Shown piece after piece: positions 1 to 29,189 of a DNA stretch of 38,563 nt (the first letter of the stretch is position 1; each line of letters begins with the position of its first letter). The position numbers and the translations under genes are program-made. A model generated the notes under the pieces. The model searched no databases and was not told the origin of the DNA. It saw only the letters and a list, made by a program, of their open reading frames with translations. Source of the stretch: a virus; IMG/VR virus record IMGVR_UViG_3300020159_002655, positions 1 to 38,563 of that record; one strand, given 5' to 3'.

Positions 1-656
1 GTTTCGGCCCCACTATTAAATTGACCGCTTGTGTCGTAAATAATTGGACTTTTATCTTTAAGTGCTCTTCGGCGCAAAGCTTCCGCCAGGTCCCTTGACT
101 CTTCGTGAACAAAGGTAGCCCCTCCCGGTGTCTGGTGAAATAAGTGAGCTTGATACTCGGGTATAATCAGCTTTGCATCATCGGGGTCAACAACGGCTGA
201 GCCAGGTTGAAAAATCGAATCTAGTCCATCAAGATATTCAAATAAATCGCTTGGGTTAGTGGGGACATCTCCCTTAAACGAATCCATTATTTGAGTTCTT
301 GTTGTGCTTTTTCCCGTTGCCGTCGTTCCGCCAATAACGGTAAAAACAAGGTCGTCGTCCCAGGCTCCGCCTTTAAAGTCTTCGCGTTCGGCCTGAGCTC
401 GTGCCATCTCGGCTTCTATATATGGAGACCATATAACGGACTGTCTTGCAGGACTCAAATTTCTTTTTTGTTGCCATGGTCTTGGGCTTAGGATTGCGTC
501 AAAAGTTGCTCTATCAGGAATATCTGGATGAGGTAAGCCAAGCAAGTCATGGAGACGCCAGTTTGGCCTCCATTTAATCCCCGACTTGGTCGATTTAATA
601 GCCTTGCCAATGTTTTCGCGTATTTGCGAGACTTCATCTGGGGAGTATCTACCCAT
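1..656 (-). CDS. Zeta-toxin-like P-loop kinase domain protein (partial, runs off left edge)
   Basis: Read on the minus strand from ATG at 656, the frame is open to position 1 (218 codons), so the C-terminus is missing. A Walker A loop, GGTTATGKST, lies at residues 109-118 (positions 303-332). About 40 residues later comes VVDPDDAKLIIPEYQAH, which resembles the zeta-toxin segment with a substrate-binding Asp, followed by a helix and a IIYDTSG strand. This order matches zeta-toxin/UDP-GlcNAc-kinase-like P-loop kinases; the family assignment is by motif only. The frame stays open upstream of the ATG to about 755 and encodes RGLSGAM immediately before it (654-668). That is the motif shared by the other large proteins here, so translation probably enters from upstream, by -1 frameshift from the preceding gene or a non-ATG start. 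No antitoxin is visible beside it. It is likely a cargo module in a phage late operon rather than a free toxin-antitoxin pair. Confidence 0.75.
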   Translation of the reverse strand, partial: MGRYSPDEVSQIRENIGKAIKSTKSGIKWRPNWRLHDLLGLPHPDIPDRATFDAILSPRPWQQKRNLSPARQSVIWSPYIEAEMARAQAEREDFKGGAWDDDLVFTVIGGTTATGKSTTRTQIMDSFKGDVPTNPSDLFEYLDGLDSIFQPGSAVVDPDDAKLIIPEYQAHLFHQTPGGATFVHEESRDLAEALRRRALKDKSPIIYDTSGQFNSGAE

Positions 657-730
657 TGCTCCAGAAAGTCCGCGTGAGGCTGACGCCCGATTATCCGTTG
701 CGCTTCTTGTGTCGCCCGGACGGTCGGGCG

Positions 731-2899
731 TTATGCTTTTTTTGGTTTTCTCCTCGCTCTAAAAAATCCACGAGGATATTTTTTAGCATTTCTGGCGGTG
801 CTGAGAATAGTGTTTTCTGTTTTATTTAGACCGTCTGGACGCTTTGCCGATGCCGTTCTGGAAAAAGAGCCTTTACTCATACGGTCAAGGTCTCCCTGAA
901 TCGAATCCAGCTCTCTAAAATCTACCTTGTTAGCTTTCTTAGGGGATGCAATTCTTACCCCTCTCGGTATTCCGGAACCCATTGAACCGCTCATTCCACC
1001 ACCGGAACTATTTTTATTAACTTTATGTGCTTGAACTTCGGGCCAAAAAGATTGAATAGAACGGCGTTTTTCTTCAAGGAGATTTATGTAATCGTCTAGA
1101 TAGCTATAGCTTCTATCTGTTGCCGTTGAAATATCGTGGTTATTATTTATTTCTTCAGCAAAGTTTTTAAGACTTGGTGATGTTTCAAAGAACCAATCCC
1201 TCATTCTTTGCCAATACTCAAGAGTTCCTTCGTCCTTTTTTTGTTCCGGCATTGTTTCAAAAAGCAAAGAAGCAAGACGCCACAGCTCTACTTGTTTTTT
1301 GCGCATCATTTGATACTCGTTTGAGGTTCTTTTTTTGAGTTCTTTTGCTTCTTTTATTGCATCATTTAGACGCCTTTTTAAATCTGACTCACTGCTGGCG
1401 TTAATCATCCTGTCCATCAGTCTTTCTGACGCCGCATTCATGGCGCGCTGCCGAGCAGCAATACTTGCTGCTTGTTCGGCCGCTCTTGAGTCTTGCTTTG
1501 ATGCTCCAGACTCTATTGCTCCTTGTCTACTCATGTCGCGAACAAGGCTCCAGTGCCGGTCTGGATAGTCGGGAGCGATTTCCCTAAACGATTCACCGTT
1601 TTGTACGCGCTGCCATATCGCAGCTCTTTCTGTTATTGCATCCGTGCTTTGTCCAAGCCTGTCAACTCGTTGAGCTTGTCTTTCCTGCATCTCTTCGTCA
1701 GTTAATTCGTAGTCTTCTTTTTGTTCAGGATTTAAACCCGCTGTACGAAGTAGTTTGTCCCAATTTATTTCTTCGCCATCAGTAAATTCTGTTGGACGTG
1801 GGGCATAGCGCTGTGCTTGGCTATCGGCTTTGTCGTCGGCCCATTCGCTCTCTTCATAGTCTCTAGCGCTCCTGTTAAAAGGGTGGTCCTTCAGCCAGTT
1901 TTTAATTGCGTCAATTTCTGCCCGCGCTTCCTTAAGGTCTTCGGGAGCGACGTCTGCATCTGGTCCAAGCAAGCGCTCGGCCTCTCCATCCCAGTCGTAG
2001 TCAGCACCCATTTCTTCAGAGATTTCATCTAGGACTTCATCTTGAAGACGGTTAAGTTCGGCCAAGTCGTTGGGGTCAAAGTCGTCTTCACCAAAAGGTT
2101 CGTCATCGCCCTCAAACGTATTCCTATCGGCACGACCTATAGAGCCTGTAAGCTTGTTGCCAGGACCGGAAGTTCTTTTTCTAAGTTCTTCTGGTTTTTT
2201 TGCAAACGGGTCAACGCCGTCCGCCATAGAATCACGCCGACGCAATATTGCATCTTTCTCTCTTTTGCGATATGCCTCTGCCAGCTGTGCTGCTTGTTTT
2301 TTAATGGGTTCAGGCATCCCTCCAGAAATGTCATTAATCATCGACGCGGTCAAACTGAACTCTTTTGGACCCCATGTGTTATCGAAGTCATCTTCAATTA
2401 AATTCTGCGCCCAATCCCATATTGCATTATGGCTGGATATTGCTTGCCGCTTCTTTCCAACATTGGTTATTTTTTGAATGCGGTCTTGGTCTTTTTCAAG
2501 AAGGTCAAGCATGGAGTTAGCAACACCTATTTCGGAGTCTTTATCTCTTTTTGAAATAGAACCAGTTAATTTTCTTCCAGTTGTTACCCTTTGTGGAACC
2601 TTTGGCTTATTTGGAACCTCTGTGGGTGCCGGCGTTGGTGTGGATGGAACAGGCGGCTTGATTGGGACTTCTTCTGGACGAGGAATTTCAATCGGCTTTA
2701 CCTTGGGCATGTTTTTTGGGCCAGCGGGCCGTTCGAAGGACGTCCCTTCTTGTACGGTTCCGTCCATGTCGCCATCAATGGCGTCGGGGTCAAATCTCTC
2801 GAAGCGGTTCCCTATCCTTTTGCCGCGTCTGAGAGCTTTTTCGTCGGTATTACTAAAGACAATACCTTCAATTTTTGTGATGTCAAATTTTTTAGTCAT
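731..2899 (-). CDS. Large modular virion-associated protein with EF-hand-like loop and LSGxM motifs (722 aa)
   Basis: No family recognised for the whole protein. Residues 37-58 are an EF-hand/dockerin-like loop, FDPDAIDGDMDGTVQEGT followed by SFERP. A Pro-rich linker (about 63-100) follows that closely resembles the one inside the prohead protease polypeptide (PKVKPI..P.PE.VPIKPP). LSG-type motifs sit at residues 111 (LTGSI), 250 (LTGSI) and 636 (MSGSM), separating an early helical region, an acidic helical region and a basic tail. A short stretch around residues 425-460 (AIWQRVQNGESFREIA) could be helix-turn-helix-like, but this is weak. The ATG at 2899 is preceded by GAGAGG. It is the penultimate gene before the left edge of the minus-strand operon and ends at a slippery A7 tract, so part of the product may continue into the kinase. 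It probably acts inside the virion, by analogy with its sister proteins. Confidence 0.7.
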   Translation of the reverse strand: MTKKFDITKIEGIVFSNTDEKALRRGKRIGNRFERFDPDAIDGDMDGTVQEGTSFERPAGPKNMPKVKPIEIPRPEEVPIKPPVPSTPTPAPTEVPNKPKVPQRVTTGRKLTGSISKRDKDSEIGVANSMLDLLEKDQDRIQKITNVGKKRQAISSHNAIWDWAQNLIEDDFDNTWGPKEFSLTASMINDISGGMPEPIKKQAAQLAEAYRKREKDAILRRRDSMADGVDPFAKKPEELRKRTSGPGNKLTGSIGRADRNTFEGDDEPFGEDDFDPNDLAELNRLQDEVLDEISEEMGADYDWDGEAERLLGPDADVAPEDLKEARAEIDAIKNWLKDHPFNRSARDYEESEWADDKADSQAQRYAPRPTEFTDGEEINWDKLLRTAGLNPEQKEDYELTDEEMQERQAQRVDRLGQSTDAITERAAIWQRVQNGESFREIAPDYPDRHWSLVRDMSRQGAIESGASKQDSRAAEQAASIAARQRAMNAASERLMDRMINASSESDLKRRLNDAIKEAKELKKRTSNEYQMMRKKQVELWRLASLLFETMPEQKKDEGTLEYWQRMRDWFFETSPSLKNFAEEINNNHDISTATDRSYSYLDDYINLLEEKRRSIQSFWPEVQAHKVNKNSSGGGMSGSMGSGIPRGVRIASPKKANKVDFRELDSIQGDLDRMSKGSFSRTASAKRPDGLNKTENTILSTARNAKKYPRGFFRARRKPKKA
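737..743 (-). promoter_or_regulatory. Candidate -1 frameshift slippery site A AAA AAA
   Basis: On the minus strand the last codons of the 722-aa gene are CCA AAA AAA GCA TAA, so the zero frame contains the heptamer A AAA AAA followed by G, two codons before the stop. A -1 slip on the two Lys codons would read AGC ATA ACG CCC and continue open through RGLSGAM into the zeta-like kinase. The downstream frame has a TAG 20-30 bases upstream of the slip and no ATG before the kinase ATG. I see no obvious stem-loop downstream and have not folded the region. An alternative is that the true tract has eight A residues (indel in the assembly), which would fuse the two frames outright. Confidence 0.5.
2726..2791 (-). 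other. EF-hand/dockerin-like loop, copy 1
   Basis: Residues 37-58 of the 722-aa protein. Acidic residues at alternating positions (D-x-D-x-D-G) followed by VQEGT and SFERP match the shape of a calcium-binding loop. Copies 2-4 lie at 7845-7910, 18116-18181 and 27437-27502. Confidence 0.6.
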
Positions 2900-2911: not shown

Positions 2912-3559
2912 TTAGCTGCTCATATCGGTAAATGAATACCTAGTCTTTTTTGCCCCTGATTTACGTGGGTGCCCATCAGGTAAAAGAGATATGTCTGATA
3001 TATATCTTAGATTCTTTGGTGCCGCTCCGGAGAGAACAGATAGAAATATGTTTACTCGTCGCATCGCCTCTTTTGAGCCATTTCTTTTTTCTTTGTCCCA
3101 AATGGTTTGCAGCATTGCCGGGGTAGCCATGTATGTGCTTCCTTTTTCGGCAAGTTTCATCTCTTTGTTGTGAGACCTGACTTTGGCAACAATAAATCTG
3201 TTGTCTGGTGCTTGCTGTTCTGATTTAACCTGAACTGCTTTAGAAACTAATCTAGAATTAGCTGGCGTCTTTTTAATAACACGTTTTATAAATTCGCGTT
3301 CTCTTTTTTCTCTGTCTTTTTTTGCTTGTGGCCCGACACCCATTGACCGTCTGTAATCAGACTCATTAGTGCAGGGCATCCATGCTTCGCCGCCGTCTAT
3401 TGTGGCGTATCTTCTGATGCCTATGCACCCCATTTGGCGAGACCTAACTCTGGCGGAGTCTGGGCTGAGATATACGTCTGGGTCGCCTTTTCTAATCCTT
3501 CTTTGTCCTTGCATTGCTTTTTCAGATAAGAGCTTCTCGTTTGTTTTATCTCTAAACAT
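2912..3559 (-). CDS. Hypothetical protein with GCIGI..WMPC motif (215 aa)
   Basis: The frame is open from a TTG at 3577, but GGAGGG lies 7 bases before the ATG at 3559, so 3559 is the better start. It overlaps the end of the upstream gene (stop at 3552) by 8 bases. The protein is basic and mostly helical in the middle. Residues 45-64 carry two Cys residues in the pattern GC-IGI-x..DG-x..WMPC-TN, ending in xxDYRR. The same pattern occurs in the 106-aa protein at 7965-8285, so the two are likely paralogous at this motif. The C-terminus contains VLSGAAPKNLRYISDI. Function is unknown. Its position inside the late operon suggests a virion or assembly role. Confidence 0.7.
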   Translation of the reverse strand: MFRDKTNEKLLSEKAMQGQRRIRKGDPDVYLSPDSARVRSRQMGCIGIRRYATIDGGEAWMPCTNESDYRRSMGVGPQAKKDREKREREFIKRVIKKTPANSRLVSKAVQVKSEQQAPDNRFIVAKVRSHNKEMKLAEKGSTYMATPAMLQTIWDKEKRNGSKEAMRRVNIFLSVLSGAAPKNLRYISDISLLPDGHPRKSGAKKTRYSFTDMSS

Positions 3560-6500
3560 CAGGACCCTCCACTTCAATTGTTCTAGGCTTTTGGCGCGTT
3601 GGAAGAGCTTCGTAGATTTCTTTGATATTAAAGAAATTAGGAAGGTCAGTCATTGTTTTAAGAATTAAACGTAGGCGCTTTATTTCTTCGTCGCTCATAC
3701 TTATCGATATTCCATTGTCGTCCGTCGGCAGGGCTTCTAATGAGTTGATAATGGCTAGAGCTTTCATTAGTTCTTGATATTGCGGCGTACTTATTTCAAT
3801 GTCTTTTGATTTTACTTTTGCTGCATATTCGTTTATGTCGTCAGCAAAGATGTACCAGTTATCCACATCTATTTCTGTAAAAAACCGCATTTGTTTATCA
3901 TTTGGAGAAACTATTGAGCGTCGTGTTGGCTGATTTGATATTGGAATTTTTTTAATATTTCTTCCACCCATTTCGCCAGACAGTCTTCTGGTCGGTTTTT
4001 CATCCTGCATTTCTTTGCGCATTTTTCTTGTGGCGCGACGAGTGCCTGGAGTTAGGTTATTAAACGGCACTGCTGTATTGTCCCAGTATTGAGATTTACC
4101 AATACGTCGTCTTAAATTGTCATCAGACCTTAACGACTGAACCATCGTGAGAAATGAATCAAATTCTTGCGTCATCTCAAAAATTTGCAAAGACCTGGCA
4201 ATTTTGTACAACCTTGCTCCATAGGCTTGTGCGTATGGGTCTTGTCCTTTTGCCCAGTCAAGTTGTTCAAACCATTCACCTTTTTCAAGGTCCCAACCCA
4301 TTGCTTCTGCATATATCGTCGCAAGCTCCTTTAAATTAGAAACATATTTAGGGTCAGTTCTTAGTGCTGTAATGTTTTCTCCTGCAACATTGTAACCATC
4401 TCCGTATGCAGCGCTTCCTCTGTCAATTGGAAAAGCCCACCAGTCATAGTGAGCATTATGAAGTTTTTTCCAGTCTTTTTTATTTTTCCAGTCTCTAAAC
4501 ATTTCAAGTTGCTCAGCTTGTTTTTCCTGCATGTGCTTATGGCCGTAAAACTTGATTGTATTTATATATTTGCTGGGCTTGTCTTGACGCTTGCGCCAAC
4601 CAAAAAACTTTCTTTTGTTTTTTTTCTTTTCCTGATTATTGTTACGTGCCGGAAGAGGCACTTCCCTTTCCCACGGGAGCGGCACGTCTATGGGCGATGA
4701 AGAAACACCTTCTCCGTCGTAACCGTTGGGGTTATAGTCTTTCCAAAATTCATACTCTTCGTCACTCAAGGTGTCAAGATAGTCGTTCCACTCTTCTTCT
4801 CGTTCTATTTCCTGTTCTAGTTCATAATCAAAATCATCCGCATCTGGGTCATAATCCGTATATGCAACTTCAATGTCCAATAGTTCGTCGATTATCCGGT
4901 ATCTTTCTTGCTCGCCAATATCAATACTGAACAAACGTTCGGCCAACAATTCCACTCTTGTTCCCGGGTCTCTATTCCAGTCCGAACCCATCATCTTCTT
5001 TAGCTCTTCTAGGTATGCACCAATTTCAGCGTCAGAGTCATATATGCCTATGGCTCCCATTAAAGATGAAGAGCGAGCCCGTCTGGTTTTTATTCTTTCG
5101 GTTGTGTCGTTTAGAACAACGTCTTGAAGAGTATCGATAGGAACATTTTTAATTTTTTTACCACGGCCAATTTTGCCAGAAAGCTTATTGGTCCGTTCAA
5201 AACTTATTATTCCATTTTCATTTTTTGAAGTTATTGGTTTACCGTCTGGTCCCAGTAAACCATTTTTTCCAGTATCAATTATTTCTAGCAAATCTGATAT
5301 GGGTCCTGGATAAGCATCAAAGCCCCATCGCATAAAATTATGAAACGTGCTTTGGTCTCTCCTATTATAAAAACGCATGAATTCCGGGTTTGTAGGCCAC
5401 GATTCAGATGCTTTTGAAATTGCTGGACTTTTGGCTAGTTGTCCCCATCCGTACTCTCTCCACCAAAAACGATGAGCTGCTTCTTTTTGAGCTTGAGTCC
5501 AATCAATAGGCGCATACTCAATCATGTCTCTATGAGCAAGGTAGTTGGCCCACTCTCCATGTCTGTCGTACGCTCTTCCTGTTCCATAGTGGCCAAATAG
5601 GTCGTGTAGACCATCACTGCCAATAAGAAAAGTACTGCCTGTTTGTATGTTCATTAGGGACATTACGTATTCTTGAATCCATGAAACATAATTACCCTTG
5701 TTGTAATCTGTTATTTGCAGTTCAGGAGGAATGGGTAGGTCTTTACCATCTTCTATAAACCCTTTAATTAGGTCATCTAGATATTTCTGATAAAGCCAGG
5801 GCCCACCAGTGTCAACGTCAACTTCATCATGTGCTGAATACCTGCCGGTATAATACTCTGCAATTTTTTTCCAAAGTTCCTCAACTGCTGCTATCGGCGG
5901 TAGTTCAACATCAGCCCAGTCTCGCTGTCTAGCCAAAAGCGGATTAATCAGCGGATGAGGCTCTGCAATTATTATTGGCAAACCGCCAGAGGCTGTTGAA
6001 ATTCTGATTGAATCCAAAAGCTCTCTTCGCATGCTGTCAATCTCTGGACGAAGCGGCATGTTGTAAATATCACCAGTTACAAAACCGTTTGCTATTTTCC
6101 CGGTTGCGCTTTCTACTGCTCCAGCTTGGCTTTCGTTAAGTTCGAATTCTTTCGAAACTTTTGCAATTAATTCAGAAAGAGGCAAAGCCTGAACGGTTCT
6201 TCTGTCCGCTCTCATTGAGCCACTTAACCCAGGACTTTTTCTTTGTTCGTCCGCCTTCTTGCGGCCGCTCTCTTCAATTTTTTTAGCCATGTCTGCACGT
6301 ATTTTTTGCTCTATAGCTCTTGTAGCTGTAAGCAATTTTTCGTCGAATTCATTTTCTGTCATGCCAAATTTTTCAGCTGACTCAGCGGAGCTGTGTGTTG
6401 CTCTGTAAATAAACATATCTTCTGTTTTTTTATCAAAGAATCCAGGGTTTCTCGTTACAACTTTAGCCAAGTCGGCAGCGAGGTTGCTAACTTTTCTTAC

Positions 6501-7964
6501 GCCAAGAGGCCCAGAGCCTTCAGGTATGTATTGTTTATTTGGGCTACCTAATCTTGTGAAAAGTTTTTCGCCTGCTTCTTTACGTTTTTTGTTTACTTCT
6601 CTGATTATTCTTTGATTGCGATGGCGAGATGCGCGGGATAAAATATCCAACTTTCTAGACATTTCCATATCATCCTCAAAAGCCAAAGCCAACCAGCCGG
6701 CATGACCAAAACCAATTCTGTGCTTTCCGGCAGCTAGGTCTTTAACTGGAATCCACTCAGCAGCTTTTGCATCTGACGCGGCAACAGCTTCCGTATCTGC
6801 CGGAACGTCATAACGGGCACCCCCAACACGTACGCCCTCAACAAATCTAGGGTCCCAGTCTCTCGCCTCTATTTCGCCTATGTAACGTTTTGAAAGCGCT
6901 TGTGATGCGGAAATACCAACTTCTTCTTCCATCTCCCGGTCCGCTGTTTGTTCTAGTGTTTCCCCCTCGTCATGTAGTCCACCGGGAAGAGTAAAACCTT
7001 CAGTGAACGGCGCTGTCTTGCGACGAATCATTAAAACTTCTTTTTCACCATTTTCATTAGTGCGAACAATTATGGCATCGGCTGCTTGCTGTTTTTCTTT
7101 TTTAGCAAAAGACCAGCTATTGGATGACCAGGAAACATCGTTGTCCATGTCTGAATCGTCAAGTATTGCGTCAAGGCTCACTCCGGCCGCTTCAGCTTCT
7201 TCTACTAAATTTTTTCCTACGATATCAATGTGTTTTTCACGTGTGGTTTTATCTGCGGAATCTCCAGGACCAATGTCCCCCCTTAGTCCTCTTCTCCGTT
7301 TTTCTCTATTTGTTAATTTTGGTTCTTCTGGTTTTGGCTCTTGAGGAGCAGGAGACGGAAAGTAGTCTTTAAATGTTTCGTTAACTATATTGCGAAGTTC
7401 ATTTTTTAAGTCGTCATCATCTATCTCTAGCGTTTCAGCGAGTTGGTCAAGCGTTAGCTTGGTTCCTGGTTTTTGTTTTGCTGCAACAAGACGTAGCGCA
7501 GTTGCCTTGTCTTCTGGGCGAAGTGTAGGTTTTGTTTGTTCTAAAGAAAACGAAGATTGTTTGGGTTTTGCTCTTTTGCGCGGTATTACAAGACCAGCTT
7601 TTCTTAGGTCTGAAATAAAATTTAAATATGAACGTGGGTCACTTGGTGTTGACGCAGTTGACCATATACGTCCGTCGGGCCTAATGAACTGTGGGTGATT
7701 GTTCTTACCTCTTCTGATTGTCCATCCTTGTTCTTTGGCCAATTCCTGAAGCTCTTTAATGCTCCACATGCCGCCCTCTCCACCCATTGAGCCAGAAAGT
7801 TTCTGAACAGGGGACCGCTGCGGAAGTCTATTTTTTAATACGTCAGGTCTTTCAAATGCTGTTGCATCCTGAACGCGACCGTCACCGTCGGCGTCTATGG
7901 CGTCAGGGTCAAAGCGGTCAAATCTTCCACCAATTCTTCTGTTTAATCTATTTCTAATAGCCAT
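3552..7964 (-). CDS. Giant modular protein with HicA-like, Nudix and LSGxM-delimited modules (1470 aa)
   Basis: Module order from the N-terminus: EF-hand/dockerin-like loop at residues 19-40; LSGSM at 56; a HicA-like small domain at about 65-130 (GWTIRRGKNNHPQFIRPDGR, then TPSDPRSYLNFISDLRKAG); a linker; a Nudix hydrolase domain at about 280-420 with a complete Nudix box at 329-351 (positions 6912-6980; Gly-x5-Glu-x7-Arg-Glu-x-x-Glu-Glu-x-Gly pattern satisfied); LSGSM at 580; a helical domain with HDLFGH at 787-792 and more His downstream; LSGKI at 928; an acidic region; LSGEM at 1328; and a helical C-terminus. Nudix enzymes hydrolyse nucleoside diphosphates linked to another moiety; the substrate here is unknown. 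The start at 7964 has CAGGAG about 12 bases upstream and abuts the stop of the previous gene. The toxin-like and hydrolase modules inside a late-operon giant suggest virion-carried effectors (inference). Confidence 0.8.
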   Translation of the reverse strand: MAIRNRLNRRIGGRFDRFDPDAIDADGDGRVQDATAFERPDVLKNRLPQRSPVQKLSGSMGGEGGMWSIKELQELAKEQGWTIRRGKNNHPQFIRPDGRIWSTASTPSDPRSYLNFISDLRKAGLVIPRKRAKPKQSSFSLEQTKPTLRPEDKATALRLVAAKQKPGTKLTLDQLAETLEIDDDDLKNELRNIVNETFKDYFPSPAPQEPKPEEPKLTNREKRRRGLRGDIGPGDSADKTTREKHIDIVGKNLVEEAEAAGVSLDAILDDSDMDNDVSWSSNSWSFAKKEKQQAADAIIVRTNENGEKEVLMIRRKTAPFTEGFTLPGGLHDEGETLEQTADREMEEEVGISASQALSKRYIGEIEARDWDPRFVEGVRVGGARYDVPADTEAVAASDAKAAEWIPVKDLAAGKHRIGFGHAGWLALAFEDDMEMSRKLDILSRASRHRNQRIIREVNKKRKEAGEKLFTRLGSPNKQYIPEGSGPLGVRKVSNLAADLAKVVTRNPGFFDKKTEDMFIYRATHSSAESAEKFGMTENEFDEKLLTATRAIEQKIRADMAKKIEESGRKKADEQRKSPGLSGSMRADRRTVQALPLSELIAKVSKEFELNESQAGAVESATGKIANGFVTGDIYNMPLRPEIDSMRRELLDSIRISTASGGLPIIIAEPHPLINPLLARQRDWADVELPPIAAVEELWKKIAEYYTGRYSAHDEVDVDTGGPWLYQKYLDDLIKGFIEDGKDLPIPPELQITDYNKGNYVSWIQEYVMSLMNIQTGSTFLIGSDGLHDLFGHYGTGRAYDRHGEWANYLAHRDMIEYAPIDWTQAQKEAAHRFWWREYGWGQLAKSPAISKASESWPTNPEFMRFYNRRDQSTFHNFMRWGFDAYPGPISDLLEIIDTGKNGLLGPDGKPITSKNENGIISFERTNKLSGKIGRGKKIKNVPIDTLQDVVLNDTTERIKTRRARSSSLMGAIGIYDSDAEIGAYLEELKKMMGSDWNRDPGTRVELLAERLFSIDIGEQERYRIIDELLDIEVAYTDYDPDADDFDYELEQEIEREEEWNDYLDTLSDEEYEFWKDYNPNGYDGEGVSSSPIDVPLPWEREVPLPARNNNQEKKKNKRKFFGWRKRQDKPSKYINTIKFYGHKHMQEKQAEQLEMFRDWKNKKDWKKLHNAHYDWWAFPIDRGSAAYGDGYNVAGENITALRTDPKYVSNLKELATIYAEAMGWDLEKGEWFEQLDWAKGQDPYAQAYGARLYKIARSLQIFEMTQEFDSFLTMVQSLRSDDNLRRRIGKSQYWDNTAVPFNNLTPGTRRATRKMRKEMQDEKPTRRLSGEMGGRNIKKIPISNQPTRRSIVSPNDKQMRFFTEIDVDNWYIFADDINEYAAKVKSKDIEISTPQYQELMKALAIINSLEALPTDDNGISISMSDEEIKRLRLILKTMTDLPNFFNIKEIYEALPTRQKPRTIEVEGPDV
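7845..7910 (-). other. EF-hand/dockerin-like loop, copy 2
   Basis: Residues 19-40 of the 1470-aa protein, FDPDAIDADGDGRVQDAT followed by AFERP. The D-A-D-G-D-G spacing fits a calcium loop. It begins only 18 residues from the N-terminus. Confidence 0.6.
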
Positions 7965-11600: not shown

Positions 11601-13214
11601 TGTACCTGTTTTAGCAAAAAACTTAGCTGTATTTGTATTGGCCATTGCCACATCGCGGCGCTTGGCTCTATTACTAGATTTGGGCTTACGTACTTTTTTA
11701 GAAGACTGTTTTGGTTTTTTAGTTCCGGTAGCAACATCTTGTGCAACTCTTGACAAGAGTCTTGCTGCTCTTTCTTTACGCGAATCGGTAGAGCGTGGTT
11801 TTCTGCCTCGCTTTTTTCTTGTTGTTTTTTTGTCTCTTACAGCGGTTGCTTTTGCGGCCGCTCTGTCTGCAAGACGCTGGGCAAGAGGTGGTTTTTGAGG
11901 GGATTTTCCAACGTTTGTTCGTTTTGATTTTTTGTTTTGCGCTTTATCTTGTTTTCTATAAGCATTAATTCTTTTTCTAAAATCCCTAGTGCTTGGACCA
12001 TCCGTTGTCGCATCTATTTTTCCGGTGGACAAATCAGATATATAAGACAATTGTTCTTCGGGTATCGCAACCCAGTTCCCATCCGGATTTCCGGCAACAA
12101 TATCATCAATGGTTTCTAGCCACTCTTGGTCTGTTTGACCAGACCTTACAAGCCATCCGTTTCTGGGGTCAGCAACGTTGTACAAATATTCAGCATCTTC
12201 CAAAGGAAGTTTTCGATTTCTTTTTTTAAGAGATTCTAAGAATTTTTCTTCTTGTGTTTGTTTGATTGTTGGTGCTTTGGGAGTCTTGGGAGGTTTTGTC
12301 GTTGGCTGAGCTGTTCTTCTTGCTGCTCTTCTGGATGTTGAAGTATTGCCGCGGGCTCTTATTCCGCCAGCAGCAGACTCAAGAGCTGTTGCTATTCTTT
12401 CAGCGACTCTTTCTCTTGCGGGTGCTTTTGCAGCACGGTTGGCTCTTCTGTCCAGTCTTCTGTTCGACCTTTCACCCGCACGCTGAAGTGTTCTGTCTCC
12501 GCGTGCTTCCAGGGACTCACCCATCCTGCGAATTGCGCCCAATTCTTGACCAGCAAAAGCTGTAAACCCACGACCAATTCGGCGCGAAACACCCCAAGTG
12601 CAGCCACGGCCAAACCTGTTAGTGAATTGGCCACCGTACGGTGTTTCTGGCGGACAACGCCATGAGCCTACTCCGCCTCGCGCAGAGGGGTCAAAGATAG
12701 CTCTAGCGCCTTTTGCCTCAAGTCTCATGCTGGCAATCTGCATGTCTAAAGAAAATGCTTTAGCTTTATATGTAATTGCATTTCTTTTAAATTCAACATC
12801 TATAAAGCTAATTGGCATATCCGACACAGACATACGCATGTCTTCATCGTCAGAATCAAAACTGTCCGGTTCTGGGATTTTCTGCTCTCCGGCCGGGTCA
12901 GATTTAATGTTTAGTTTTAAAGATTTTGTTTCTTCGTTCAGCATTTTACGTATTTGAATAATTACGTCATCTGAAAATTCGCCAGATAGTGAGCCAGCTT
13001 CGTCTTCTGTAAAGGGCTTTGGCTTGGAAGCGTAGAGCATTACATCTATCGAGTTTTTAATGTCATTGAGCGACATTTTTCTTGAATTGCACTGCTTTGC
13101 CCATGCAGCGCCAGTAGGGCTTGCGCCAAAAGCTCTTACGCTATTCTTGTCGCTTACTAGAACGGCAAATACAGAATCATTCAAAACGTCTTTTAGAAAA
13201 GATATTTGCTTCAT
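8673..13214 (-). CDS. Giant modular virion protein with CPxxTPxGGQFT motif, basic and Pro-rich linkers (1513 aa)
   Basis: Residues 187-205 (positions 12600-12656) hold a Cys-bounded motif, CPPETPYGGQFTN...GC, also seen in the next two giant proteins upstream. A strongly basic, Arg/Lys/Ala-rich region follows (about 210-560), suited to binding DNA or bridging. Residues about 668-731 are a Pro-rich linker made partly by a 9-bp tandem repeat. The C-terminal half is globular. Its last 250 residues include GGSGLTYYGPAGIGALVSSK and, near the end, IYAGYDGYF..LNRTALAVL, which recalls the last strands of phage ADP-ribosyltransferase-like domains; I cannot point to a certain catalytic R-S-E triad. SLSGEF at about residue 75 is a weak LSG-type match. 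ATG at 13214 overlaps the previous stop as ATGA. Probably an internal virion protein. Confidence 0.75.
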   Translation of the reverse strand: MKQISFLKDVLNDSVFAVLVSDKNSVRAFGASPTGAAWAKQCNSRKMSLNDIKNSIDVMLYASKPKPFTEDEAGSLSGEFSDDVIIQIRKMLNEETKSLKLNIKSDPAGEQKIPEPDSFDSDDEDMRMSVSDMPISFIDVEFKRNAITYKAKAFSLDMQIASMRLEAKGARAIFDPSARGGVGSWRCPPETPYGGQFTNRFGRGCTWGVSRRIGRGFTAFAGQELGAIRRMGESLEARGDRTLQRAGERSNRRLDRRANRAAKAPARERVAERIATALESAAGGIRARGNTSTSRRAARRTAQPTTKPPKTPKAPTIKQTQEEKFLESLKKRNRKLPLEDAEYLYNVADPRNGWLVRSGQTDQEWLETIDDIVAGNPDGNWVAIPEEQLSYISDLSTGKIDATTDGPSTRDFRKRINAYRKQDKAQNKKSKRTNVGKSPQKPPLAQRLADRAAAKATAVRDKKTTRKKRGRKPRSTDSRKERAARLLSRVAQDVATGTKKPKQSSKKVRKPKSSNRAKRRDVAMANTNTAKFFAKTGTSKLMPDMSTLTQQQQDDVRAAVKQAYDQAYDIQEKRVLDYIERRKRFKRNNAQPRTFKSKPGSIDLDEVIEATQKSGIIDGWVQGQWNNDAHNFQVLAEIINNDDYSLVDELKPSKRDAILQAAGVVPPPKRSRKKKTPPASPPAAPPAPAAPPAPVAPPTPPTPPTPPTPPTPATPPSPPVKPPVKLPPKPPAAASVDAVTLDDVTPVDQRDMSIEGVEPAGTMWRGVDVSGFVRVTRGKREPQFRDPATNRFIDLSKAIKFEGTTDAVDFKDYPKVSKGPEVIAYPKKRASFNGKNQDREIFPGVSDKAFESWDEVIRMWDGNTAMHKESIHGFKLLRDVLIGVNSDFDPESGQPLVGAERFVLKDLITRFVSRAFDSTWQMQRDVDDIPILVSDPIKAQLQAALALVSPTPGQSGAPSYADLNLPEWFLRVPAPSNPWDQINTASSYQQNWLTGSNSRQTSLQAHNQITSYLMTGRPTDFLQAFDTAATLLKSLQTDMDNQLRSWRAGNKSAVIPRRIAQLGFEIKSLEEFIQEYFGDDTTIAKILETRARTEYGDGIRASNKARERAERIASGELRVGGKLTPESLAPKPGIVRSSQELEKLLLQHKTPPLIENASSTKPDAAITPLTQDEVDFYDQVQNAFLTKILPNGQTVEEYGASGSTSDSSIAELHMSLELNGYNDAPLQLSDEEFENALKEKDDEGNPRWHFMSRFLNTNDKRKDLTPDMMVEEYRQAERWPIGGGGQAGGRGDNFQGGSGLTYYGPAGIGALVSSKARVANRQWLDDISDMIKDVLRDASSRRHVEISPSIMSIGTRVDDDELMELIDNLKIAMLTNNSYSSFGGLAAGDPRYDEAMSIASMAIEHWLQIELSKISVPEGGLSEDDEEWNARLLRMQQGIFNMDEAQVAIYAGYDGYFTNRQSWMISKDYKNEDWYKHTDKNMETEQIMWLNRTALAVLHRTMSHADAARFSRA
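11080..11124. repeat. 9-bp tandem repeat, five copies, encoding Thr-Pro-Pro
   Basis: On the plus strand the unit GGAGTAGGY occurs five times without interruption. On the coding minus strand each unit gives one Pro-Pro-Thr step, forming a (TPP)n linker inside the 1513-aa protein. Such a repeat can change length by slippage, so linker length may vary between relatives. Confidence 0.85.
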
Positions 13215-15253
13215 ACTTCTAGTCCAATAATATTGAGAAATGATTTTTTGCTGTTAGACAAGATATTAATTCTGGTTTCAATAAGTTTTTTTACCAAATT
13301 AATATGCGTTTTTTCGGCCTGTGAATACAAGCCGTCAAGCGCCAGCCGCGATGCCATCTCTGATACATCATACTGCCTTAATCTTGTTAACATTGCATCA
13401 AATAGCTTTAGCGCTATTCGTCTTTGGGCTTCTGAACGCTTAGCAAAATTAGCGCGCATAGATGCTAGATATTCTTCAGAGTAGAAATCGTTAGCTTTTA
13501 GCATTCTGCGTCGCTCTTCAGCCGAAAGACCAATTCCGGCAAGTGCTGCATTTCTGTTTATTGATGCGATTGTTCTATTTCCACCGTTCGCGTCTATTGA
13601 AACTATTGTAGATAAATCCCTGTCTCTGGTGTCTGTTATAAAATCGCTTACAGCAATACGTAACATGTCTTCGTAATTGTTTAAGTCAGAAGAGCTTTCT
13701 CTGTTTATTTTTGCTCTTTTTGCTACGTCTACTGATTCTTGTAACAGATAAGGCCGGCGAACTCCAGAACCGGAAACAAATACTTTTGGTGCTAGTAGCC
13801 CAAGATATTTTTGAACATCGTTAGCTACAGCAGCGCCAATGTGTTCGTAGTTAGACGATGCCGGTATATCCAGAAGTGTCTGTCCATCGGCTTTGTCATA
13901 CGCGGCAATTCCGTTTTTAAGCATTCTTTTTTTGTATATCCGGCTACGACGAACTGCTTCAGCAATTATCTGGGAGTCAATTTTTGAAATATCGCCATTA
14001 CTGTTTAGGTGGCGTATTGCATTTTGAAGGTTTGTTATTTTTTCTTCTATTGCCTTGCCGTCAGTAGCTATCGAATCCACTTCGACGCGGTCCGGCTTCT
14101 TTCCTTTTGCTGTTCTTAAAAACGCTTCGTAATACCATCTTCTCACCTGACGTACGTTTGAAGTGCCGGGAATAACGGCATCAATAATGTCGTTGGCGTT
14201 TTCTGTTTTGAAAGATTCCCTATATGCAATTCCGCTGCCCATTTCGGCAGCTAGGGCCTTTAGGTGAGCGCTGGGGTCAGAAGCGCTCCTTTGAGAACTG
14301 AGGGTTCTAATCGTTCTGCCGAGTTTTCTGCGCTCTCCTACAGTGAGGGTTCTTGATTTTTCAATAGAAATAACAGAACCACCAGGAAGTACATAAGTCA
14401 GTTTACGAACTCCAGTATTTGAAAGGAGGCCTATTTCATCATCTGTTCCAATTAGTGAGGCACTGTCAACAAACTGTATGTAGTTAGCGTTTTCCATGTC
14501 TCTGTTGTCCGGAACGGTGCGAAGAACTGCCGAGCTAACAACTGGAGAAAGGGAAAAACCATCTCGTCTTACAAGTCGACGGGCTGGCTTGGCAAAAGAC
14601 ACCATCTCGGCTACGACCTTGTTCGACGAAGACAGGTAGCTGTTCGGATTATCTGCTCCAACTCGTGGTATTTGAGGTGCGCGCGTGGTTATTACTTGCC
14701 CAGGAGCGTTTGGAAATCTAACGTTTTGAGCCGAGACGTTTGCAGACAAAACAGCACGCTGGGCTTGGTTAGCAAGCTGTCCAATGCTTTCGGCTAGCGC
14801 CGCCGCTACCTCGAATAGCTTTTGTCCGCAGGTAGAAAGTCGACTGTCGGTAAAACGTCCACCATACTGATATCCCTCAGGACACCTGTATCCACGGCTT
14901 CCGTCTCCGGGTTTTCCAACACCGGGGATATTCCCACCACCAGGAGTAAGAGACGAAAACAAACGAGACCTTACTGGGCTCCTCCACGAAGATGCGTTTC
15001 CCGGAATTACTGCAGATACTGCACCCTGTACTCCCTGTAGAAATCTACTATCTGAACCAGAAATTCCGGCTTTGTAATCGAACCTATTTCTCCCACCTTG
15101 CCTTTGAGCGCGGGCTTTAAAATTAATAAGAACCGACTTATTTTTACCTTCGATTGGGCCGTGAAAAATAGGAGGTCTAGTCAAGGCAAGACTCGCAGTC
15201 TTGTAACGTATGACCCTGTAGGCCATTGCTCCAGAAACTAGGGAATCTTCCAT
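13211..15253 (-). CDS. Modular virion-associated protein with CPEGYxYGGRFTD motif (680 aa)
   Basis: Residues 124-142 (positions 14828-14884) hold CPEGYQYGGRFTDSRLSTC, the same Cys-bounded module as in the 1513-aa and 1839-aa proteins. The N-terminal 100 residues are basic and Ser/Gly-rich. The rest is a long alpha/beta region with RRLVRRDGFSLSP and a helical C-terminus; no enzyme signature is recognised. An LSG-type sequence, LVSGAM, is at residues 5-10 (positions 15224-15238). The frame opens at ATG 15253, immediately after the upstream stop with no clear Shine-Dalgarno, so a start at Met10 (15226) is possible. The C-terminus overlaps the next gene by four bases (ATGA). Probably a structural or internal head protein of the same set as its neighbours. 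Confidence 0.7.
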   Translation of the reverse strand: MEDSLVSGAMAYRVIRYKTASLALTRPPIFHGPIEGKNKSVLINFKARAQRQGGRNRFDYKAGISGSDSRFLQGVQGAVSAVIPGNASSWRSPVRSRLFSSLTPGGGNIPGVGKPGDGSRGYRCPEGYQYGGRFTDSRLSTCGQKLFEVAAALAESIGQLANQAQRAVLSANVSAQNVRFPNAPGQVITTRAPQIPRVGADNPNSYLSSSNKVVAEMVSFAKPARRLVRRDGFSLSPVVSSAVLRTVPDNRDMENANYIQFVDSASLIGTDDEIGLLSNTGVRKLTYVLPGGSVISIEKSRTLTVGERRKLGRTIRTLSSQRSASDPSAHLKALAAEMGSGIAYRESFKTENANDIIDAVIPGTSNVRQVRRWYYEAFLRTAKGKKPDRVEVDSIATDGKAIEEKITNLQNAIRHLNSNGDISKIDSQIIAEAVRRSRIYKKRMLKNGIAAYDKADGQTLLDIPASSNYEHIGAAVANDVQKYLGLLAPKVFVSGSGVRRPYLLQESVDVAKRAKINRESSSDLNNYEDMLRIAVSDFITDTRDRDLSTIVSIDANGGNRTIASINRNAALAGIGLSAEERRRMLKANDFYSEEYLASMRANFAKRSEAQRRIALKLFDAMLTRLRQYDVSEMASRLALDGLYSQAEKTHINLVKKLIETRINILSNSKKSFLNIIGLEV

Positions 15254-15907: not shown

Positions 15908-16196
15908 TTTTTTTCCCCTTATCTTTTTTCTCAAAGCTTGGCATTAAAGTCGGGTCTGATTTTAAAAATTTAAGCAAGTTTTTTTTATAGGCGTCTATAT
16001 CTGAAAATTGCAAATTGCTATTAAGGGCTTCTTTAAAAGTCTGAAATTTTCCAAAAAAATCGTCAGTTATTGTAAAAGTTCCATCTTTGTCGACCTGCGC
16101 AGTGGATGGTGAACTTTCTCCACCGGATAGCGGTGAAGTTTTTTTTGAGGTTTTAAAGGGAAATAATTTTGTGGGTTTTATTTTATTAGTGGCCAT
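15897..16196 (-). CDS. Small basic protein (99 aa)
   Basis: The open frame extends to 16244, but ATG 16196 shares a base with the stop of the 693-aa gene (TAATG), the coupling arrangement used elsewhere in this operon, so I choose 16196. The sequence is Lys-rich at both ends with a SPLSGGESS stretch near residue 25 that is a partial LSG-type match, followed by VDKDGTFTITDDFFGKF. No family recognised. It may be a small internal or assembly protein. Confidence 0.6.
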   Translation of the reverse strand: MATNKIKPTKLFPFKTSKKTSPLSGGESSPSTAQVDKDGTFTITDDFFGKFQTFKEALNSNLQFSDIDAYKKNLLKFLKSDPTLMPSFEKKDKGKKNGK

Positions 16197-18277
16197 TACA
16201 CACCAAGTGCTTCCAGGGATATGGGCGGCATAAGCGATTTCCACCCGTTTCCGCCGTAAATCCAGTTTAGTATATCCACTACTGCACTGCGTACATCCGC
16301 CGGCATTGGAATATTTGCCGCTCCGCTCCCAAATATCAGAGAAGATATAAGCTCTGGGTATATCTCAGCGCTACTTATGGAGTTTTTTGACGCAAAAGTC
16401 AAGCCGTTTCTGTAACCCTGATGGGGGGCGGAACCGTAGGCCGAAACCTGCCTCATCCAATTAAGGAGCTTCCATTTGGTGCTGTCAGAAATAAAATCTG
16501 GCCACATGTCTGTCGTTTTGGCAAAAAATAAAGCCTGTCTTTGGAGTCTCATCCATGTATCCATAGTGTTTTGGTCTAGGGCATTTATGGTCTGAGATAC
16601 GTCAAACCTTTTATTTCCATTTGCGTCCACGGTTGAATATCCTGGTGTAAAAAGCGCAACAGATGCGGAATTAAGGGCAACGTTATTATTGTCTAAATAG
16701 TCAGATAAATCTTGTGAATCCATGAATGCCAGGAGTAACGATTCCATTGTTTCAGGCGAAGCTTGTCTGTCTTTAATTAGGTCGCCGTCGCCATCCATAA
16801 ACGGAACTTCATTTCCCATCTCGTCTACCGTCATAACAACATCTTTGCCGTGACCGGGGTGTCCGGGTGGGAATATGTCATAAAAGTAATTTAAACCATC
16901 ATCGTAAACAAACTTGCTTAAAGTTGCTATTTCTGATTGCTCCGGTGTTCCAGCATTGATATTTGATTCTAAATCATTTACCTGTTTTGTGGCTTCTGTA
17001 ATCTTTTCATTTAATTCGTCTATTTGTTGGTCCATCTGTAAAAGTATTGCCATTCCCTGCAGCAGTGGGATTGAGTTATTATCTACAAGGTCTTGAACTT
17101 GTGATTTTTCATCAACGAAGGAGTCTCTAACGTCTTCTATAGCCGCTGTCTGATTTTTAATTCCTTCAAGAAATTTTTCAGGGCCTAATATCTTGTAAAC
17201 TATTGAAGACCTAATAAGATTTCCAATAACATTATCTTCTAAGTCGTCGATAATATCGCGCATATTTGCTACTTTAAATAACTCATCTGGGCCGTAGTTG
17301 TCTTGTTCTAACTGCTCTAAAAGGTCAGCATCACCCGCTGCATTGGGAAAACGTTTTCTGAGTTTTGCGATTATTTCTTCTGCCATCCCCGGCATTACTA
17401 ATGCATGAATAGATTCATGTGTAGAAACAACCATAGACATCATTACTATTGCGCCCGCATATAACTGCCGTTGCGTTTCATCATCCGGAGCTTCACTTGC
17501 TTTTTTTAGTATTTGTTTTGAAACCTGGAGTCCAACTCCGTCAAAAAAATTAGCAGATTCTTCGGACAAAAGAGATTGAGCCAATGCGTTTATATTTGCT
17601 GGAACGCGAATAGTTAATCCAAACTCTGGATACTTTTGTGTACCATCTTTTAAATCTATTCTTGGCATAACAGATGTTGAGCCGCTTGCGGAAAAACTTC
17701 CATTATCTAATTCCATTTCTATAAAAGCACGGCGTTTTTTTAAATGCGGAACATCTTGCAATGTGTGAAGTATTGCGTAAATTGCACCCTGCTCTGAAGG
17801 GGAAAGTGTGTCTGAAAGATTTGAGCGTCCTTGTTGGTCTGTGTAATTTTGCTCTTGTCCAAAATGACGCAAGCTAACTTTATTAAAAACCTTTTTTAAG
17901 GCCTGAAGAGCGTCGTCTACGGTATTTAAATCTCCATACTTGGCACGCATGTCGGACATTATTTTTTCATATATTTTTACAATTGAATCATAATCCATAC
18001 CATCAAACTCTTTAATGTCTGGCGAGTTTGTAGCGGCCGGAGTTGCTGTATTCATGTTCTGGGACATGCTGCCCGAAATTCCGCGAGTGATTTTTGCTGC
18101 TGCACGTTCTAGCGCTGGTCTTTCGAAACGAGTGCTATCTTGAACTTTTCCGTCGTTGTCGCCGTCTACTGCATTAGGGTCAAAGCGAGCTGAAGTGTCT
18201 CTAATTTTTCGACCTAGCGCTTTTGCGTTTATTTTGTGTTGTTGTAGGAAACTTTGTCCCAATATTTTGTTTTTCAT
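16196..18277 (-). CDS. Modular protein with EF-hand-like loop, LSGSM and HExxH motif (693 aa)
   Basis: Order: basic N-terminus; EF-hand/dockerin-like loop at residues 33-54 (FDPNAVDGDNDGKVQDST then RFERP); ISGSM at 67-71; then a globular region. HESIH at residues 287-291 (positions 17405-17419), inside a helix (MVVSTHESIHALVMPGM), matches the HExxH zinc-peptidase signature. An acidic helix with Asp/Glu follows, but I cannot assign the third ligand. A coiled-coil-like stretch lies at about 410-460 (QIDELNEKITEATKQVNDLE). The ATG at 18277 has GAGG 8 bases upstream. If active, this would be a metallopeptidase carried with the virion; it could also be a degenerate fold. It lies directly downstream of the 1839-aa protein, which carries a second HExxH-type motif. 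Confidence 0.7.
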   Translation of the reverse strand: MKNKILGQSFLQQHKINAKALGRKIRDTSARFDPNAVDGDNDGKVQDSTRFERPALERAAAKITRGISGSMSQNMNTATPAATNSPDIKEFDGMDYDSIVKIYEKIMSDMRAKYGDLNTVDDALQALKKVFNKVSLRHFGQEQNYTDQQGRSNLSDTLSPSEQGAIYAILHTLQDVPHLKKRRAFIEMELDNGSFSASGSTSVMPRIDLKDGTQKYPEFGLTIRVPANINALAQSLLSEESANFFDGVGLQVSKQILKKASEAPDDETQRQLYAGAIVMMSMVVSTHESIHALVMPGMAEEIIAKLRKRFPNAAGDADLLEQLEQDNYGPDELFKVANMRDIIDDLEDNVIGNLIRSSIVYKILGPEKFLEGIKNQTAAIEDVRDSFVDEKSQVQDLVDNNSIPLLQGMAILLQMDQQIDELNEKITEATKQVNDLESNINAGTPEQSEIATLSKFVYDDGLNYFYDIFPPGHPGHGKDVVMTVDEMGNEVPFMDGDGDLIKDRQASPETMESLLLAFMDSQDLSDYLDNNNVALNSASVALFTPGYSTVDANGNKRFDVSQTINALDQNTMDTWMRLQRQALFFAKTTDMWPDFISDSTKWKLLNWMRQVSAYGSAPHQGYRNGLTFASKNSISSAEIYPELISSLIFGSGAANIPMPADVRSAVVDILNWIYGGNGWKSLMPPISLEALGV
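18116..18181 (-). other. EF-hand/dockerin-like loop, copy 3
   Basis: Residues 33-54 of the 693-aa protein, FDPNAVDGDNDGKVQDST followed by RFERP. This copy has the most canonical D-x-D-N-D-G-x-V pattern. Confidence 0.65.
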
Positions 18278-18287
18278 ATATAACCTC

Positions 18288-21200
18288 TTAAGGAGAAGGG
18301 GTGGGCAAAAAATTAGAATTAGGGCGGCGTTGTTCGACTTGTTGTTTTTCAGACTTTGCTGTTGTCAATCTGTCGCTGTTCATGAGTCTAAGCATGGCAT
18401 TAATACTCATATCCCAGGTATTTTCAATCCGGCTAATGTTTCGCATCAAAGGTTCATCTAAATAACTTAGTTGTTCATATTTCCAAATTGGGAGATTATG
18501 GTGCGCAGTGGACTTAACCCCCAGCAAAGATGCAAGATATTCAATGCGGGAATCTACTGCGTATGAAGTTCCGTGCATGCCTCCTGGAAATTTTTTTGGT
18601 TTGTAATCTGGGCCGTAGGTTTCTTTGCCCATTTCGTCAAGCATTTCGTCAATGACCTGTTTTTGGGCTGCTTGAAATTGTATTGCTTCATTCATGTCGC
18701 GGATTCTTTCCTCGTCTGTTAGACGAGCAATATTTCCCGATTCTGGCATCCATTTTTCAATTCCCATATCGGCCGCACTTGGGAGACGCACAATCCGATA
18801 CGTTCCTCGCGGCATTACCAACCCTTCTCCGGGCTTTGGCGTCATCACAGTGTCAACTCCAAAAAGATTGTCAAGCGAATCTGGGTTATTTTCTAAAATT
18901 GAGTTGATGCCGGTAATGATTGCATATGACTCACCTGTTGGGCTCTGTCTATCCATGTGACCCTGAACAAGGTGATTAAGAGAAAAGTGAATACTTCCAC
19001 GGTGGTATCGCATTGGTCCGGTTCCATCATCCTTTCTATTGTCTCCAAAGTCCTCAGTTGGCCTTAGTATTAAATTGCCATTTTCGTCGATTGTCGGCTT
19101 GTAGCTTGTTTGATGAACTGCAAACAAGTCTCGAGTGTCAATTACTGTTGGTGTGTATTCATAATTTTCGTTTATGCCATAGAACAGCGTGTTCTCGTCG
19201 CCTTTACTAATCCAATCGATGTCACCCATAGATTCTTCAATTTTTGCTACATATTTGTCTTTTTTACTTGTCCTGTGAGCTTTACCTACAGCCGCAAGAC
19301 GTTGTAGTTCTTTTTCGGCATCTTTATCGCCGCGAGAAGACGAATAAAGAAGGGCAGAGGCGTACCCGCTATTGTCTTTGTCTTCAAGCATTGCACCAAT
19401 TGTTGCATCCCACCAAGTCATCGCAATATTGCGGCCTTCATCGCTATCCGATGACGAGTTGCTTATTATGTAGGGGTTTAGTGGCAAAATCTTAACGTCT
19501 GCGTCAAGCTCAATAACTTGATTACCAAATTGAACAGAACCAAAAGCAAGTTTTTCTGAACCTACCGTGTATACGGGGAATGTATCAACGCTCTTTAATC
19601 CTTCAATCGGCTCGCCAAGTGTTTCAATTTCCAGCTTGTCAATCGGTGAATAGGGTTTACTGCGCACTACGTCTTCGGGGTTACGTGATACTTTGCCGGT
19701 CTTTATGCTTTGTCCGGTAGACATAGAGCCACTGAGTCCTCTAGTCCTTCCTGTATTGGGGGTTGTCGTTTCTCTCCTTTGGCTGTTAATTGCTTCAGTA
19801 ACGGCCTGTATTGCTTCTAGCCTTCCCTGTTCTAGCACTTCCTTAAACTTGTCTACGTTTTTGTCTTGCTCTGCTTTGATAAGTTCTTCTTCAATTTGTT
19901 TAGAAAAAGACATATTTGACGTTTTGCCATCTTGAAGGTCACGTAGGTGATTTAAAAGAATCATGTCGGCGACCGTTGAATCAGGGTTAATGTCTTCGTC
20001 TTTTATATTCGGAAAAGAACTCGGCATGACGTCTTTTACAAATGTTCGAGTCATTTGCGGGTTAAACAGTTCGACGGAATCGACGCCGCCAGCGCGAACA
20101 GAATCAAGTACTAAAGTGGTTCCATGCTTTTCTAATAACTCCTGTCGCGCAATAACAAAATTAGAAAAAGCTACTGCGTCGAGTGTTGTGTCGGAGCTCA
20201 TGATTCCAACAATCATTGAATCGTTGTTTCCAACCCGCGCTCCAATAGCTCTGTTTTCACGCCCAAAATGACTAGCGTTTACAACTATTGCTTGTACGTC
20301 GTCCATTGAAAATGAACCAGGAATAAGTGCTTCGTTGTATCCGCTAGTTCCTGAACCGCCAGCAGGACTAAGAAGGGAAAGTCCATCGTCAACCAACGAA
20401 TGATACAGAAGACCGGTTAACGGGTCGCCCTTTGCAAAACCAATAGCCGAAGCGCCATATCTAAGGCTCTCGGATGAAGCCATCTCTACTCCACCGGCAC
20501 CAAAAGAGGACAACGAATCTGCGGCAGTAAATCTGGCTCGTTCAGCTACGTGAGGCTTAAGTATTATTTGCCCGCCGGCACTATCGCCTCTCTTAGACCT
20601 ACCGTACATACGGCCGACATTTGAAGAGCCATCTACTTCACGACCAATTGTGTAATCCTCTGTAATTTCAACTTCTTCACCATATATCGACCTTAGGTTT
20701 TTGCGCCGATTTTTTCCAAGACCAGATTGTTGAATAACTCCAGACGCCGGTCTTAGTCTGTCTTCCAGTTCTGGTGGTATGCCATACATAGACTCCGCGT
20801 TCCGACGCACCCCCCTAACGTCTCCACCTCCGCCAGTCGCGCTAAATATTCCTGCTTCTCTTCTGGCATCAATATCAAATTGGGTGTAGTAAATACCACT
20901 ATCTATAAACTTCTGGGGTTCCTTTATGAAAACAGATATTCTTCTGTCAAAACTGTCGCCGAAATCGTTAGCTGCTTTTGTAAGGTCATCAATCATTTCT
21001 GATTCAGTAGCAGTGTTTAGGTAGTTAATAAAAGCATCAATTTTTTTAACTTTTTCTGTATCACCTGAAGCTAGTGCTAGTTCTCTTTCGATTGCCAGTG
21101 GCAGGCCTGGTCCGTAGTATGGATTGTGCAACATGATGCCGTCGTGTGCACTCAGCTCCTGTCTTACACGGTCTGGGTCAAAAATCGCACCAAGAGCAAC

Positions 21201-23807: not shown

Positions 23808-23874
23808 TGGCACTCCATCTATGAATGATGATGTCATTCAATTCTATTCGCCCAAAGTGCACCGGGCCGTATGA

Positions 23875-25622: not shown

Positions 25623-25846
25623 TAGGGCTCCTTGTGTTGGAGTGTCTTAAGTAGACAGCTTTTTTGATTTGTACAACCAGAACACGGCTGATGGCGTTTT
25701 TCGCCAGTAACTATGCACTGATACTTATGTTGAATATTGGTTAATGGTCTCGAAGTAGCATAACCCATTGAAGACCTTCTCTGGGTGTAGTTATTGCTTT
25801 CTCGAGCTGTTGTTGGCCGACCAGATGGCTGACCGGCCGGTGTCAT
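25622..25846 (-). CDS. Small Cys-containing protein (74 aa)
   Basis: ATG at 25846 overlaps the upstream stop as ATGA, and the stop shares a base with the next ATG. The N-terminal half is Ser/Thr/Arg-rich and disordered-looking. The C-terminal half has four Cys (CIVTGEKRHQPCSGCTNQKSC) that could form a small zinc knuckle. No family recognised. Confidence 0.65.
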   Translation of the reverse strand: MTPAGQPSGRPTTARESNNYTQRRSSMGYATSRPLTNIQHKYQCIVTGEKRHQPCSGCTNQKSCLLKTLQHKEP

Positions 25847-29107: not shown

Positions 29108-29189
29108 GTAAAAACCTTTCGCCGCTTCAATGATAAACAATGAAATTCATTACTAGTGGAACACTTTACGTAAAGTGTTTTAACTTTAC

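Follow-up and report, generated by a model that had tools for sequence, protein, structure and literature searches.

A frameshift signal of the E. coli dnaX type consists of the slippery sequence A_AAA_AAG and a hairpin, and the shift shortens the product. The junction described here, at the end of a viral gene for a 722-aa protein, resembles that signal in having an A-rich slippery site with a predicted hairpin a few nucleotides downstream. However, the heptamer is A_AAA_AAA, the shift would extend the product, and the Shine-Dalgarno-like GAGGAG upstream of the A7 tract in the window is not conserved in two relatives (L002 and L003). The window is the whole stretch of DNA that was analyzed, the 38,563-nt IMG/VR record IMGVR_UViG_3300020159_002655.

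In the PRFect paper (PMC10885494), tail chaperones are the principal case of frameshifting in phages; the paper also suggests frameshifting for pairs of genes that are found fused elsewhere and names VIP2 and MuF. As far as they are described there, tail assembly chaperones of the lambda gpG/gpGT type (Xu et al. 2004, cited in PMC10885494) are like the window in that a -1 slip at a heptamer near the end of a late gene would give a short protein and a fusion sharing its N-terminus. They differ in that the window has a zeta-type kinase as the extension, that its gene is part of the head block preceding the major capsid gene, and that no tail chaperone is made. The -1 frameshift in the major head protein of bacteriophage A2, again as summarized in that paper (Garcia et al. 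2004, cited in PMC10885494), likewise gives an extended head-locus protein, but the upstream protein in the window is not a capsid protein and the appended part is an enzyme domain.

Polyvalent proteins (PMC5512222) are encoded in late loci, reach huge sizes and combine many domains, with NUDIX, MuF and zeta-type kinases among these; they are thought to be packaged and injected, and they include a zeta-like kinase fused to MuF. The window has the same mix of domains in its late locus, with NUDIX, S78 protease, portal-MuF and kinase in one block; however, the domains of the published proteins are fused in one polypeptide frame, and a text search of PMC5512222 found no mention of frameshifting. 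A minor head protein of cyanophage PSS2, found through a match to phrog_16619, also carries a zeta-type kinase domain in a head-associated protein. Unlike the window, it is annotated as one gene, and the phrog_16619 match covers the kinase part only. A literature search for frameshifting together with zeta toxins in phages returned nothing relevant. Frameshifting is well known from phage tail genes, but no earlier report was found of a slip that appends a kinase to a protein of the head region. Comparison of the sequences indicates that the recoding site is genuine, conserved and unusual in what it appends.

The junction and its predicted hairpin

The 722-aa gene ends CCA AAA AAA GCA TAA (745-731, minus strand, CCAAAAAAAGCATAA), which in the zero frame reads RRKPKKA-stop (Table 1). 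A preliminary description of this DNA had claimed that the A7 tract is in the correct phase for a -1 shift, that the -1 frame has a long stretch without ATG, and that RGLSGAM is encoded ahead of the kinase ATG. All three hold: the heptamer conforms to X_XXY_YYZ in the zero-frame phase in three genomes, the first ATG, GTG or TTG of the -1 frame is the ATG at 656-654, which lies 74 nt past the zero-frame stop, and RGLSGAM was found in the -1 frame. The gap translates in this frame as SITPDRPGDTRSATDNRASASRGLSGA-M. The frame stays open for 252 codons, from 758 up to the contig edge at 3, so that no more than the first ~217 aa of the kinase, counted from its ATG, lie within the window. Since A7 runs alone are not rare on the coding strand (10 in 6.6 kb), it is the phase and the conservation that carry weight.

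Table 1. Features of the junction in the window.
Feature	Positions	Strand	Remark
Zero-frame gene, 722 aa, ending KPKKA-stop	731..2899	-	
Slippery heptamer A_AAA_AAA, zero frame CCA AAA AAA	737..743	-	identical in L002 and L003
Zero-frame stop TAA, right after the GCA codon behind the slippery site	731..733	-	kept in 3/3 genomes
RNA hairpin predicted as stimulator; its outer stem pairs 731-724 with 690-683 and encloses an inner stem	683..731	-	
-1-frame linker S-I-T-P-D-R-P...RGLSGA-M, no canonical start codon before the last codon	654..736	-	
RGLSGAM, copy of the LSG[SA]M motif repeated in the phage's late proteins	654..674	-	
-1-frame extension: linker and zeta-toxin-type P-loop kinase (Walker A GGTTATGKST), kinase cut by the contig edge	3..743	-	PF06414 26.3 bits against a cut-off of 22.3

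A stimulatory structure about 5-9 nt downstream is part of a frameshift signal, and here a predicted hairpin begins 5-6 nt past the heptamer in all three genomes. The folding energies are -27.3 kcal/mol in the window and -26.7 and -24.1 kcal/mol in L002 and L003 (z -3.15, -2.80 and -2.10), and in each genome the hairpin stretch ranks at or near the top for stability among 565-621 windows over both genes. CGGGCG, which encodes Arg-Ala and is complementary to CGCC[CU]G, occurs in the 3' arm in 3/3 genomes despite indels and shifts in position.

The favored reading is a programmed -1 ribosomal frameshift at A_AAA_AAA that would fuse the 722-aa protein to the kinase, with a probability of roughly 0.87. 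Ribosomes would slip back one base at the A7 tract, stimulated by the hairpin, and a share of them would evade the TAA and continue in the -1 frame. One start would then give two proteins, the 722-aa protein and its fusion to the zeta-toxin-type kinase. The 722-aa part, whose gene lies between the portal/protease and major capsid genes, might carry a low-copy kinase into the head, and the kinase might travel with the DNA into the host; position and resemblance suggest that the fusion is packaged in the head. Several parts of this proposal are tentative: that the slip is ribosomal, that the fusion is the minority product, that the 722-aa part serves head delivery, and that the head protease cuts at the motif between the domains, which stands a little short of even odds.

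The hairpin and its spacing suggest a ribosomal rather than a transcriptional slip. In transcriptional slippage, RNA polymerase would add one A to the A7 tract and the resulting A8 mRNA would encode the fusion in one frame. The homopolymeric A tract suits this explanation, the same protein would result, and at a similar junction in L032, a related phage, the tract is nine A's long. However, seven A's are short for efficient polymerase slippage, which moreover needs no conserved hairpin at ribosomal spacing, yet one is predicted in 3/3 genomes. The U_UUA_AAA at a comparable junction in L025, L087 and L088 also fits a ribosomal slip, and slippage by the polymerase appears improbable.

If the frameshift reading is true, phages would set the copy number of an enzyme-bearing head-locus protein by programmed frameshifting, as they do for tail chaperones. 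Gene callers would cut such a product in two and place the kinase start too far downstream, so that the fusion would be missed in metagenomic phages. The signal is short and is open to a direct reporter test.

Relatives with the same junction and fusions in one frame

The exact junction occurs in only three genomes, a pattern scan having returned only the contigs L002 (IMG/VR 3300028027_000068) and L003 (IMG/VR 3300032295_003012) besides the window. Amino acid identity of these two to the window is 53-55% in the 722-aa protein and 45-47% in the kinase extension. A tblastn search of annotated phages with the 722-aa protein or the window's kinase part as query found no relatives, nor did the bacterial or archaeal genomes searched. 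Actinomycetia phage DSL-LC01 was rejected as a relative, having only a small domain in common and no such junction.

Both 722-aa homologues end KPKKA-stop, and their junction DNA is CCAAAAAAAGC[AG]TAACGCC[CT]GACC. After it, the -1 frame reads SITPDLPAAQSEAAVSRAIGPNSRKPKLSGA-M in L002 (SITPDLP...KLSGAM) and SVTPDLPDAQERAPKTKPGSGKIAGS-M in L003 (SVTPDLP...KIAGSM). Coding is therefore conserved in the new frame, as the frame is open in each genome and the peptide across the three has the consensus S[IV]TPD[LR]P...[LI][SA]G[AS]M. The gap is 74 nt long in the window, 86 nt in L002 and 71 nt in L003, and its interior can hardly be aligned, yet the -1 frame stays open and the motif is always at the end.

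The preliminary description had looked to related genomes for seven or eight A's and had offered a one-base deletion in the homopolymer as the alternative. L002 and L003 retain seven A's, the frameshift geometry and the motif in the gap. Either a sequencing or assembly error (truly eight A's) or a pseudogene with a one-base deletion would give a broken frame in the window; homopolymers are error-prone, and the homologue in L035 is one continuous frame. However, the A7 tract and the same stop are present in three separate contigs from different samples, with the -1 frame open and the motif kept. An assembly error was rejected because the same error would be needed in all three. An error in the window only is thus refuted, and the explanation as a whole is exceedingly unlikely.

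It had also been stated that relatives with a clear separate start and Shine-Dalgarno at the kinase would count against the fusion. No good Shine-Dalgarno lies at a workable distance from the kinase ATG in the window, L002 or L003, unlike the downstream major capsid gene of L002 and L003, which is preceded by AGGAG; other starts in the phage are also weakly preceded by Shine-Dalgarno sequences. The kinase could nevertheless be a separate gene, translated alone from ATG 656 by coupling or reinitiation with the gap as a spacer. An ATG is present at the motif's Met in 3/3 genomes, and coupled ATGA-type overlaps occur in the block (e.g. 25846/25843). This is very unlikely given that the -1 frame is open throughout the start-less gap of all three genomes and encodes there a conserved peptide and a copy of the motif typical of the phage, that a usable Shine-Dalgarno is absent, and that L035 and L004-L018 have a fusion in one frame. 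An internal start at ATG 656 may yield additional free kinase alongside the frameshift product. The ATA overlapping the stop was rejected as a rare start codon, as L003 has GTA there.

The single continuous gene that the preliminary description had thought possible in a relative was found in the more distant contig L035 (3300021963_000077), where one uninterrupted frame of 1,201 aa contains the 722-aa homologue and the kinase. Its residues 56-151 resemble the protein upstream of the 722-aa gene, residues 155-803 resemble parts of the 722-aa protein and residues 991-1138 resemble the kinase. The motif copies ISGAM and PSGSM lie between the 722-aa-like and kinase parts, and the major capsid gene directly follows. 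The polyproteins of L004-L018 end, in frame, with the kinase as their C-terminal domain; the frame is open for ~2,000 codons upstream, and the kinase again stands just behind a short motif (GPVGKM, EAGM or TASM by genome). Fusion of the kinase thus recurs among these phages, and in the window's clade a shift would bring it about. Comparison supports frameshifting as the best explanation through the signal, the -1 frame that stays open, what the gap encodes and the fused state of the two parts in other phages, and the original proposal of a slip at A7 is largely borne out by the relatives, the hairpin and the one-frame L035 gene.

The kinase, the repeated motif and the head locus

The extension had been called a zeta-toxin-like kinase, and this identity is upheld by both sequence and fold. 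L002 and L003 score 45.0 and 36.2 bits against Pfam Zeta_toxin PF06414, above the curated cut-off as in the window, and L035 has a strong match. A profile of nine relatives finds the zeta toxin structure 1GVN in the PDB with an E of 1.2e-8. The L002 extension was modeled with AlphaFold (pLDDT 75), the linker coming out unstructured, and a Foldseek comparison (TMt 0.66) matched the model to 1GVN, 3Q8X, PezT and AvrRxo1-ORF1. Kinases of the zeta-toxin family are defined by phosphorylation of UDP-N-acetylglucosamine. The window has a regular Walker A motif, GxxxxGK[ST], but L002 and L003 deviate from it with GG[SA]SASMKST, in which Met takes the place of the last Gly, so activity may differ; the Met may mark an altered or inactive nucleotide site. 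This change (SASMKST, ATGKST in the window) sits in the kinases at L002:6106-7107 and L003:6100-7080. An epsilon/zeta toxin-antitoxin pair was also considered and rejected, since no epsilon-type antitoxin was found beside the kinase, the neighbors in L002 and L003 being the 722-aa gene and the major capsid gene.

RGLSGAM in the gap had been taken as an argument for translation of that stretch, and the numbers strengthen it. The pattern [LIVM][STAG]G[SAG][MIL] has 15 copies in the window's late proteins compared to 1.6 expected (500 shuffles, maximum 6). Among these copies, the 987-aa protein that carries the S78 prohead protease and DUF6321 accounts for three, a 1849-aa protein for another three, the NUDIX protein for two and the 722-aa protein for four. 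When the gap was shuffled, the -1 frame was open and had such a motif at its end with a probability of 6e-4 for the window, 3e-4 for L002 and 7e-4 for L003. Because the motif recurs in late proteins and is present in the gap, translation of the gap is indicated.

LSG[SA]M may serve in processing or targeting, and its copy between the 722-aa part and the kinase would, from position and resemblance, be an inter-domain and possibly processing site. This gives a concrete hypothesis for the processing of giant head-locus proteins. In the L004-L018 polyproteins the inter-domain motif looks uniform within a genome, but its letters change from one genome to the next (GPVGKM, EAGM, TASM, SGSM), a pattern that co-evolution with a protease would be expected to leave. 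Late genes bearing LSG[SA]M lie on the minus strand at 26177-29140, 18288-23837, 16196-18277, 13211-15253, 3552-7964 and 731-2899.

In the direction of transcription, the block runs from portal-MuF (31433-29190) and the S78 protease (29140-26177) through large multidomain proteins, among them the NUDIX protein (7964-3552), to the 722-aa protein and the kinase, and in the relatives an HK97-type major capsid gene comes next. The 722-aa protein matched no family in Pfam or PHROG; it consists of an N-terminal D-G-D-x-D-G-x-V-Q-E-G-T-x-F-E-R-P module, a Pro-rich stretch and a charged part holding the four motif-like copies. An N-terminal module RFDPxAxDGDxDGxVQ[ED]xTxFERP is common to many late proteins of these phages, near residue 42 in 2899-731, at residue 24 in 7964-3552 and at residue 38 in 18277-16196 (minus strand), and it looks like a calcium-binding DxDxDG loop.

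Similar candidate junctions in related phages

A second frameshift candidate is in L025, on the same contig as L035, where U_UUA_AAA GCC TGA (7805-7817) is followed by the -1 frame SLRRTGDARRLGRLTDRFD... This frame lacks ATG, GTG and TTG for 140 nt and encodes a DGDGDG...FERP / HTH protein. The site is kept in L087 and L088 (~90% identity), and differences among the three over the -1 codon positions number 8/1/12. The hairpin is weaker (z -1.85), and a CTG start overlapping the stop is an alternative there. A third candidate, from a single genome, is at L032:2966-3007, with nine A's and a hairpin of z -4.65. Its 893-codon -1 frame is start-less for 164 nt past the zero-frame stop and has a CPPGT-type module and, near the end, a PI3/PI4-kinase-like region (sub-threshold Pfam match). 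The remaining slippery-site matches in the loci were mostly in non-coding frames.

A broader and rather doubtful proposal is that, in the virion-effector block of these phages, frameshifting serves generally to control dosage. Several lineages would independently use A_AAA_AAA, U_UUA_AAA or an A9 tract plus hairpin to place an effector domain on some copies of a head-locus protein, only a few in each head, and the genome-specific inter-domain motif would mark the point of release by the head protease.

T_TTA_AAA at window position 25852 was rejected as a frameshift site, as a start-stop overlap of the ATGA type makes a shift unnecessary. That T_TTA_AAA TGA overlap (25843-25852) holds the start ATG of a 74-aa gene, and the homologous site in L025 is the U_UUA_AAA candidate.
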